Shown in pieces: positions 9,367 through 12,297 of a DNA stretch of 51,592 nt (position 1 is its first letter; each line of letters begins with the position of its first letter). The notes below the pieces were generated by a model. That model saw nothing but the letters and a program-made list of their open reading frames with translations, did no database searches and was not told where the DNA came from. The translations under genes were made by a program, and so were the position numbers. The DNA is from Halorubrum xinjiangense (lineage in GTDB: Archaea; Halobacteriota; Halobacteria; Halobacteriales; Haloferacaceae). The DNA lies in contig NZ_FNBO01000017.1 in the NCBI RefSeq assembly GCF_900102375.1, positions 1 through 51,592 of the forward strand. The letters are read 5' to 3'.

Positions 9367-10101
9367 TCAGTCCGCGCTCGACACCGACACCGTCGCGGCC
9401 GTGCCCGGGTCACCACCCTCCTCGCCAACTCCGGCCTCGGCTTCGGCCGCGAGCGTCTCCACGTTCGCGAACACGAAGCCGGCGAACCCGACCCGGAGGA
9501 GGAGGTCGAGGTACTCTAAGGTCACCGTCGCGGTGAACTGATCGAACAGCCCGGCAATCTGGAGCATCGCCCACGCGATCAACACGCCGAAGGCGAACAG
9601 CGCGAGGTTCCGCGTCTTCTTGTAGAACAGTTCGCGCTCGGGCGGCTGCCGCGCCGCCGCGCTCGCCACCGGTCCGAAGAACAGCCCGAGCAGCGTCGCG
9701 TACCCGACGAGGATCCCGAGGGTGCCCGCCGTCGCGAGCGCGCCTTCGAACACCTCCGCGAAGTCGTAGCCGAGCCGCATCGCGACGGTGATCGCGACGA
9801 CCCCCGCGACGTACCGCCGACTCGCGCCCGCGACGAACGCCGCGAACCCGAACAGGAACGGGTACGCCACGTAGTCGGTGAGCAGCTGGCCGCCCTCCAG
9901 CGTGCCGCTCGCGACCGAGAACGCCCCGATCCCGGCGCCCCAGAGTCCCACGCCGATTCCCGCGAACGCGACGACGGCGGCGAAGGGGTAGCAGTACCGA
10001 CGGAGTTCGGGGGGCTTGCGCCGCGCCAGCGCGAGCAGCACCACCGCGGAGACCGCGTAGATCGCCGCCGAGGCGAACCGCACCGCCGACGGCTCAATCA
10101 T
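9367..10101 (-). CDS. Bacteriorhodopsin-family protein without the retinal lysine (opsin-like)
   Basis: A 244-residue seven-helix protein. It aligns by eye with sensory rhodopsin II along its length: ELRRYCYPFAAVVAFAGIG in helix B, TDYVAYPFLF in helix C, GLFFGPVASAA and YKKTRNLALFAF around helices E-F, and EYLDLLLRVGFAGFV in helix G. The Schiff-base Lys205 of SRII corresponds to Arg203, and Thr204 to Leu202. Asp201 is kept as Asp199 and Tyr199 as Tyr197. The whole protein has only three lysines (29, 161, 162), none in helix G. Arg72, Asp75 and several retinal-pocket aromatics also appear changed. The start overlaps the upstream transducer stop by 8 nt. Retinal binding by a Schiff base is therefore not expected. 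Confidence 0.8.
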   Translation of the reverse strand: MIEPSAVRFASAAIYAVSAVVLLALARRKPPELRRYCYPFAAVVAFAGIGVGLWGAGIGAFSVASGTLEGGQLLTDYVAYPFLFGFAAFVAGASRRYVAGVVAITVAMRLGYDFAEVFEGALATAGTLGILVGYATLLGLFFGPVASAAARQPPERELFYKKTRNLALFAFGVLIAWAMLQIAGLFDQFTATVTLEYLDLLLRVGFAGFVFANVETLAAEAEAGVGEEGGDPGTAATVSVSSAD

Positions 10102-11689
10102 CGGCGCTCACCTCCGCGTCGCCGGCGGCGCCCGCCGGGGGCTCCGTCCCCGTCGCGGTCGTCGCGGCCGCGACGTCGGCCGCGTCTCCGCGCGTCTCGA
10201 ACTGGGCGAGCCGCTCGGTGAGCGACGCGGTGCGCTCGGCGAGCGCCGTCGCCGTCTCCGCAAGGTCGCCGACGGTCTCGGCCGTCTCGTCGGCGGTCTC
10301 CGCGAGCGACCGCGCGCGGTCGGCGGCGTCGGTGGCGGAGCCGTGGACGGCCTCGACGCGCGCCGCGACCGACTCGATCCCCTCGGCACCCTCGTCGGTC
10401 GCCCGCGCGATGTCGCCCATCGCGACGTCGACGTCCTCGACGGTGCCGGTGAGCTCCTCTATCGCGTCGCCCGCGGCCTCGACCGCCGCGGTCGTCTCGT
10501 CGAGCTCGGTCATCGTCCGGTCCATCTCGCCGGCGACCGCCGACACGTCCTCCGTCACCTCGCCGATCGTCGCCTCGATCTCCGTCGTCGAGGCGCGCGT
10601 CTCCTCGGCGAGCTCTTTCACCTCGTCGGCGACGACCGCGAACCCGTCGCCGTCGCCGCCCGCCCGCGACGCCTCGATCGAGGCGTTCAGCGCGAGGATG
10701 TTGGTCTGCTCGGCGATGTCCGCGATCACGTCGGTCGTCTCCGCGACGCCGTCCATCCGGTCGTCGAGCCCGGCCACGAGCTCGTCGAGCTCCGTCAGCA
10801 GGTCGCCGATCGCGGCGATCGCCTCGACCGCCTCGGTCGCCCGCCGCTCGCCCGCCGCGCCGAGCTCCGCCGCGGCGCTCGCGTCGCCCGCCACCTCGTC
10901 GGTGGTGGAGGCGATCTCCTCGACGGTCGCGGAGAAGTCGTCGGTGTCGGCGGCCGTCTCGCGCAGCCGGTCGGTCTGCTCGTCCAGCTCGTCGGCCAGC
11001 TCGCGCATCTCGTCGGCGACCTCCTCGTTCATCGCGGCGACCTGGTCGGCCTCCGACGCCATCTCCTCGCTCGTCGCCTCCACGTCGCCCGCGAACGACT
11101 GGATGTCCTCGACGGTCGCCGAGAGGCCGCCGGTCATCTCGTTGTACGCCGCCGTGATGCGCTCGATCGCGTCGACGTCGCTGTCCGCGTCGAGCCGTCG
11201 CGTGAGGTCGCCCTCGGCGGCATCTTCCATGGCGCCGCCGATCTCCTCGGCGCGCTCTAAGAGGGTGTCCGACAGCGCCTCGGCCTCCTCACGGGCTGAC
11301 TCCGCCTCAGACTGCGCCCGCTCGGACTCCGCGACGGCGTCCCGGAGCGACCGCCGGGTCTCGTCGAAGGCGTCGAACAGCCGCCCGATCTCGTCGCCGC
11401 GATCGGAGCTCGCGCTCGCGTCGAACTCGCCGCGCCCGACCGCCTCGGCCGTCTCCGTCAGCCGCCGGAGTTCGACCGCGACGTTGCCGACCAACACGAT
11501 GCCAAGGAGTCCGAGGTTCAGCGTGACGACGACGCCCACCGATGTCAGCGCCGCCGTCGCGGCCGCCGACGTTCCGACCGTCGCCACGTGCCCCGCAAAG
11601 AGGGCGACGAAGCCGAGCGTCACGCCAAGCGTCACGAGCACGGCCGCTCCGACCCGCCGCCCGTACCGCGCGGTGATCGCGTTCAACAT
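10094..11689 (-). CDS. HtrII-like methyl-accepting transducer
   Basis: A 531-residue chemotaxis/phototaxis transducer. Two transmembrane helices (about 13-33 and 46-70) are joined by only a short loop, so there is no ligand-binding ectodomain. HAMP-type segments lie at about 72-120 and 155-185. The conserved signalling tip is at 322-366 (IADIAEQTNILALNASIEAS, then GFAVVADEVKELAEETR). The layout and text resemble the HtrII of Natronomonas, including DRGDEIGRLFDAFDE and GDLTRRLDADSD. The gene immediately precedes the opsin-like gene, as htr precedes sop in known sensory rhodopsin operons. It would signal to CheA through CheW. Coding is confirmed by the classic tip motif on this strand. Confidence 0.9.
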   Translation of the reverse strand: MLNAITARYGRRVGAAVLVTLGVTLGFVALFAGHVATVGTSAAATAALTSVGVVVTLNLGLLGIVLVGNVAVELRRLTETAEAVGRGEFDASASSDRGDEIGRLFDAFDETRRSLRDAVAESERAQSEAESAREEAEALSDTLLERAEEIGGAMEDAAEGDLTRRLDADSDVDAIERITAAYNEMTGGLSATVEDIQSFAGDVEATSEEMASEADQVAAMNEEVADEMRELADELDEQTDRLRETAADTDDFSATVEEIASTTDEVAGDASAAAELGAAGERRATEAVEAIAAIGDLLTELDELVAGLDDRMDGVAETTDVIADIAEQTNILALNASIEASRAGGDGDGFAVVADEVKELAEETRASTTEIEATIGEVTEDVSAVAGEMDRTMTELDETTAAVEAAGDAIEELTGTVEDVDVAMGDIARATDEGAEGIESVAARVEAVHGSATDAADRARSLAETADETAETVGDLAETATALAERTASLTERLAQFETRGDAADVAAATTATGTEPPAGAAGDAEVSADD

Positions 11690-11847: not shown

Positions 11848-12297
11848 ATGCCCAGCGTCAGCGACACGTACATCGAGAACCGCCAGCGCGTCCAGCCGAC
11901 CCACACGAACAACTACGAGTCGGCCCACGGGGGCAACGTCGTCAAGTGGATGGACGAGATCGGCGCGATGTCCGCGATGCGCGCCGCCGGCGAGACCTGC
12001 GTCACGGCCAAGATCAACGGGCTCGACTTCAAGCGGCCGGTCCCGCAGGGCGACACCTGTGTCATCGAGTCGTACGTGTACGCGGTCGGGCGCACGAGCC
12101 TCCGGACACGGATCCGCGCGTACCGCGAGTCGCCGCGCACCGGCGAGCGCGACCTCACCACGGAATCGTACTTCGTGTTCGTCGCCGTCGACGCCGACGG
12201 GAGCCCGACGCCCGTCCCGGAACTGGAGGTCGCGGGCGAGCGCTGCCGCGAGCTCCGCGACGAGGCGCTGGCCGCAGAGCCGGACGAGGACCGGTAG
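11848..12297 (+). CDS. Acyl-CoA thioesterase, hotdog fold (YciA/BACH-like)
   Basis: A 149-residue single hotdog domain. The segment NYESAHGGNVVKWMDEIGAM is the typical start of the acyl-CoA hydrolase family, where the HGG..vkw.DE stretch holds the catalytic Asp. A second conserved part is GLDFKRPVPQGDTCVIESYV. The enzyme would hydrolyse acyl-CoA to free acid and CoA in the cytoplasm. It stands alone, divergent from the transducer operon. Substrate chain length cannot be read from the sequence. Confidence 0.85.
   Translation: MPSVSDTYIENRQRVQPTHTNNYESAHGGNVVKWMDEIGAMSAMRAAGETCVTAKINGLDFKRPVPQGDTCVIESYVYAVGRTSLRTRIRAYRESPRTGERDLTTESYFVFVAVDADGSPTPVPELEVAGERCRELRDEALAAEPDEDR

Follow-up and report, generated by a model that had tools for sequence, protein, structure and literature searches.

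An arginine-type opsin-related protein and its HtrII-like transducer in Halorubrum xinjiangense

A protein of Halorubrum xinjiangense appears to keep the fold of sensory rhodopsin II (SRII), carries an arginine at the site of the retinal Schiff-base lysine, and is encoded next to an HtrII-like transducer. It is likely a chromophore-free receptor that signals through this transducer. The gene lies in the window, i.e. the whole stretch of 51,592 nucleotides analysed here (contig NZ_FNBO01000017.1). An initial annotation had proposed a retained fold, a lost chromophore site and a transducer pairing, and all three are supported. It also noted that naturally lysine-less homologues had been reported; the same reading was in fact published in 2016, when Becker et al. 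described 48 haloarchaeal “opsin-related proteins” (ORPs) (PMC4915679). The observation is real, correctly read and already described.

The ORP gene and its altered retinal site

The ORP is an Arg-type protein of 244 aa with seven predicted helices, encoded on the minus strand at 9367..10101, with its ATG start at 10101 and its end at 9367. Alignments and the family profile both place R203, within the helix-G motif YLDLLLRVGF, in the column of SRII Lys205 (codon 9493..9495, minus strand, computed from the start at 10101), and the proposed replacement of the Schiff-base lysine stands. A residue count bears out that K29, K161 and K162 are the only lysines. None occurs past residue 162, and a lysine elsewhere in the last helix, sought as a refutation, is offered by no alignment. 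The protein has no histidine and a single cysteine (C37).

The surrounding pocket is changed at every position that had been named (72, 75, 76, 171 and 174). Compared with SRII, the ORP has Q72 for R72, T75 for D75, D76 for W76, F171 for W171 and L174 for Y174, with A178 for W178 and T127 for F127 in addition. The Thr75-Asp76 codons, which correspond to the SRII counterion Asp75 and to Trp76, lie at 9874..9879 (minus strand, computed). As had been read, Leu202 aligns with Thr204 of SRII. M108 is hydrophobic, and T127 places a polar residue in the Phe127 column.

Named orthologues occur in H. ezzemoulense, H. distributum, H. tebenquichense and others (75–88%). Against seven Halorubrum orthologues dN/dS is 0.19–0.36, and the gene is under purifying selection. 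These values bear on another reading, in which the ORP is the decaying remnant of a sensory rhodopsin. In its favour, some other genomes contain broken copies: the ORF is split in two in L092 (genome G152), and in L107 (Halorubrum californiense) a C-terminal ORP fragment lies downstream of an intact gene. Considering the dN/dS values, the presence of Arg203 in 72 sequences and the retention of a transducer in 71/72, decay of this kind is extremely unlikely.

The cysteine where helix B starts, Cys37 (codon 9991–9993), is kept in 50/54 proteins of the window’s clade and in 0/77 of the other aligned proteins. It is a possible candidate for a redox or metal site.

Homology to sensory rhodopsin II

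The single ORP protein has no match in Pfam (including PF01036, Bac_rhodopsin) or NCBIfam. Against the PDB it finds SRII weakly (E 2e-4), its best match being 9wxr (8.5e-7). The rhodopsin profile search suggested in the initial annotation therefore fails literally for the single sequence, but this outcome is overturned by the family. A 23-member family profile matches SRII over its full length at E 1.1e-21, with R opposite Lys205, and PF01036 is matched by 5/23 family members (best 3.7e-11). In the profile search, SRII structures score 1e-20 to 1e-21, with pumps behind at 1e-9 and weaker. At about 20% identity the ORP is, on these alignments, a remote but certain relative of SRII, and the homology is not due to chance.

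Structure prediction agrees with this at low confidence. An AlphaFold model built from 11 close orthologues without templates has a mean pLDDT of 54 and consists of seven helices, B and C being joined by a hairpin. Foldseek still ranks SRII first for it (E 1e-5, TM ~0.68), a fold match that is counted as weak support only given the poor model. Owing to the pLDDT of 54, no side-chain distances were taken from it.

The transducer partner and neighbouring genes

An HtrII-like transducer of 531 aa is encoded directly upstream on the minus strand (10094..11689), and its end overlaps the start of the ORP at 10094–10101. It comprises two TM helices, a short external loop, a HAMP domain and an MCP signalling domain; the helices and loop were read off the alignment with NpHtrII, which the N-terminus matches at 1.5e-11.

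In the SRII-HtrII complex, a hydrogen bond between Tyr199 and Asn74 is known (PMC3274258). Tyr199 corresponds to Tyr197 of the ORP (codon 9511..9513, minus strand, computed), and Asn74 aligns with Asn58 of the transducer (codon 11516..11518, minus strand, computed). Among the transducers of the window’s clade, 44 have Asn in the Asn74 column and 9 have His. As judged from the aligned columns, these contact residues are mostly kept in both partners. Available portions of the main text of PMC4915679 do not mention conservation of this transducer-side position, and the terms “N74” and “HtrII” do not occur in them.

A 4HBT thioesterase gene (11848..12297, plus strand) is the divergent neighbour. 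It adjoins the pair in all 10 named Halorubrum loci, where the order thioesterase / transducer-ORP is constant and the downstream genes vary. In other genera, no such gene was detected next to ORP-transducer pairs. The thioesterase was considered as a clue to the stimulus and dropped because its linkage is limited to Halorubrum; it is probably not part of the ORP-transducer system.

Distribution and conservation across Halobacteria

Matches with an E value no higher than 0.001, canonical rhodopsins among them, occur in 171 of the 391 Halobacteria genomes surveyed. The alignment of 131 distinct proteins, drawn from these matches and other loci, has R in 72, a hydrophobic residue in 41, K in 16, S in 1 and H in 1 at the lysine column. 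The suggested search for the same arginine in other genomes thus yields 72 Arg-bearing homologues in two clades.

In the tree, the ORPs as a whole stand apart from the single K clade (support 100/99). Hydrophobic proteins form one clade matching Becker’s group B, and Arg appears in two places. The window’s clade contains 55 rows (54 R, 1 S; support 100/99), and a second Arg clade of 18 rows lies beside the hydrophobic clade (support 100/97). A transducer is encoded directly upstream on the same strand in 53/54 Arg proteins of the window’s clade and in 18/18 of the second Arg clade; one lies directly upstream in 17/41 of the hydrophobic set. These counts agree with those of Becker et al. (15/16 and 17/32).

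The second Arg clade (L081, L084, L108–L111, L115–L118, L122, L123, L125–L128, L132 and L134; one family, f4) is SRII-like in keeping R72, D/E75 and Y174 and, for the most part, the Thr204 column; it has Y76 and W108. It is nearest to group B, a group reported as hydrophobic at the lysine column, and available portions of the main text of PMC4915679 do not mention it. Genome G357 holds two Arg-type ORPs, L106 and L048, which are 74% and 44% identical to the window’s protein and each have their own transducer. Two isolated ORP-like proteins on long branches, L080 in G173 and L165 in G167, have Ser or His in the lysine column.

K162, N165, Y197 and R203 are invariant across all 72/72 Arg proteins; the window’s clade additionally conserves Y80, R164 and G205, among others. 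The conserved positions include the cytoplasmic end of helix F and the Tyr199 column, which are transducer-facing parts of SRII. An acid is present at 75 and/or 76 in 71/72 Arg-bearing proteins and in 0/41 hydrophobic ones, a contrast partly due to shared ancestry since the hydrophobic proteins all belong to one clade. Within the window’s clade, 53/54 proteins have an acid at 75 or 76, L078 alone lacking both. Exchange of the acid between the two positions reaches significance only when all 54 rows are counted, relatives included (Fisher p 0.006, against 0.13 for 23 representatives).

This pattern can be read in another way, namely that the ORP senses nothing and is a structural or modulatory partner for assembly of a transducer that is itself the sensor. 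Apart from Arg203, most of the strictly conserved sites do lie on contact surfaces or at the cytoplasmic end of helix F. Such a role is nevertheless quite unlikely: with only a short external loop, the transducer is an improbable sensor on its own, and R203, Y80 and the 75/76 acid, which the SRII alignment places in the core, are conserved beyond apparent scaffold needs.

Host genome and light sensing

The host genome encodes four canonical rhodopsins, 12 MCPs, CheW-domain proteins and archaellins. It also has two genes for retinal-forming Blh/BCD enzymes (G000:C1:214829-215686 and G000:C9:15967-16839), one of which adjoins a rhodopsin gene. A host that makes retinal and uses rhodopsins could in principle accommodate an ORP that is still a photoreceptor, binding retinal non-covalently or another pigment (carotenoid, flavin) and passing a light signal to the transducer; an alternative chromophore was left open by Becker et al. 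(PMC4915679). Such a function is very unlikely, as the aromatic residues W76, W171, Y174, W178 and F127 have become D, F, L, A and T. The ORP of Hrr. distributum, for which a native transcript was detected and which was expressed heterologously, showed no 480–580 nm absorption when purified and supplied with retinal (PMC4915679). ORPs are also present in species without crtY and brp (PMC4915679).

Proposed mechanism

Very probably, the ORP is a 7TM chemoreceptor subunit that carries no chromophore and serves as the receptor of a pair whose transducer relays the signal to CheA. It would sit in complex with the two helices of the transducer via helices F and G. A non-light stimulus would bind within or close to the cavity that once held retinal, now presumably polar, with Arg203 facing the acid at 75/76, plus Tyr80. 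Binding might move helix F or G, and this motion would shift TM2 and the HAMP domain of the transducer, altering CheA activity and in turn archaellum switching. Tyr174, Thr204 and Arg72, residues of SRII signalling, are all lost in the ORP, and signal initiation must therefore differ.

The conservation pattern hints that Arg203 may be paired with an acid inside the protein, in place of the Schiff base and counterion. A more specific and rather doubtful proposal is that a permanent pair between Arg203 and Asp/Glu at 75 or 76 replaces the buried Lys-retinal Schiff base and its counterion and does the chemical sensing; if an anion, pH or a small molecule broke the pair, an SRII-like helix motion would follow. 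Redox, membrane state and a lipophilic ligand, which the initial annotation had named as possible stimuli, are guesses. Non-light taxis was already proposed for ORPs by Becker et al. (PMC4915679), and in the available portions of later papers citing that work none was seen to test the stimulus of a haloarchaeal ORP. If non-light sensing is true, the type 1 rhodopsin fold has here been turned to chemoreception, as happened to the GPCR fold in animals. The ORP-transducer pair belongs to a culturable genus and provides a way to approach the stimulus.

Comparison with known systems

Group A ORPs are found mainly in Halorubrum; they adjoin a transducer and carry the exchanges Lys→Arg, W76→D and Y174→L (PMC4915679). 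By sequence, the window’s ORP is a Halorubrum member of this group and adds one member to it. It shares R203, D76, L174, A178 (W178→A), M108 and T127, keeps the Tyr199 and D189 columns, adjoins a HAMP/MCP transducer and belongs to a clade apart from canonical opsins; nothing essential differs. The ORP of H. distributum JCM 10118 is 84% identical to it, and the biochemically tested protein is that of JCM 9100.

With SRII/HtrII of Natronomonas pharaonis, the pair shares full-length homology, the receptor-transducer gene pair, the TM-HAMP-MCP layout and the Tyr199-Asn74 contact columns (Y197 and transducer N58). Unlike that low-identity relative, the ORP has lost what marks SRII as a photoreceptor, namely the Schiff-base lysine of helix G, the counterion, the pocket aromatics and the Tyr174-Thr204 signalling pair. 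Group B haloarchaeal ORPs are a related retinal-free group that also keeps the Tyr199 column, but they differ in having a hydrophobic residue at the lysine column, retained Arg72, Gly75-Tyr76 and an adjoining transducer in only part of the set (17/41). The lysine was also lost, independently, in fungal ORPs and in further type 1 opsins, to which Becker et al. ascribe a separate origin (PMC4915679).
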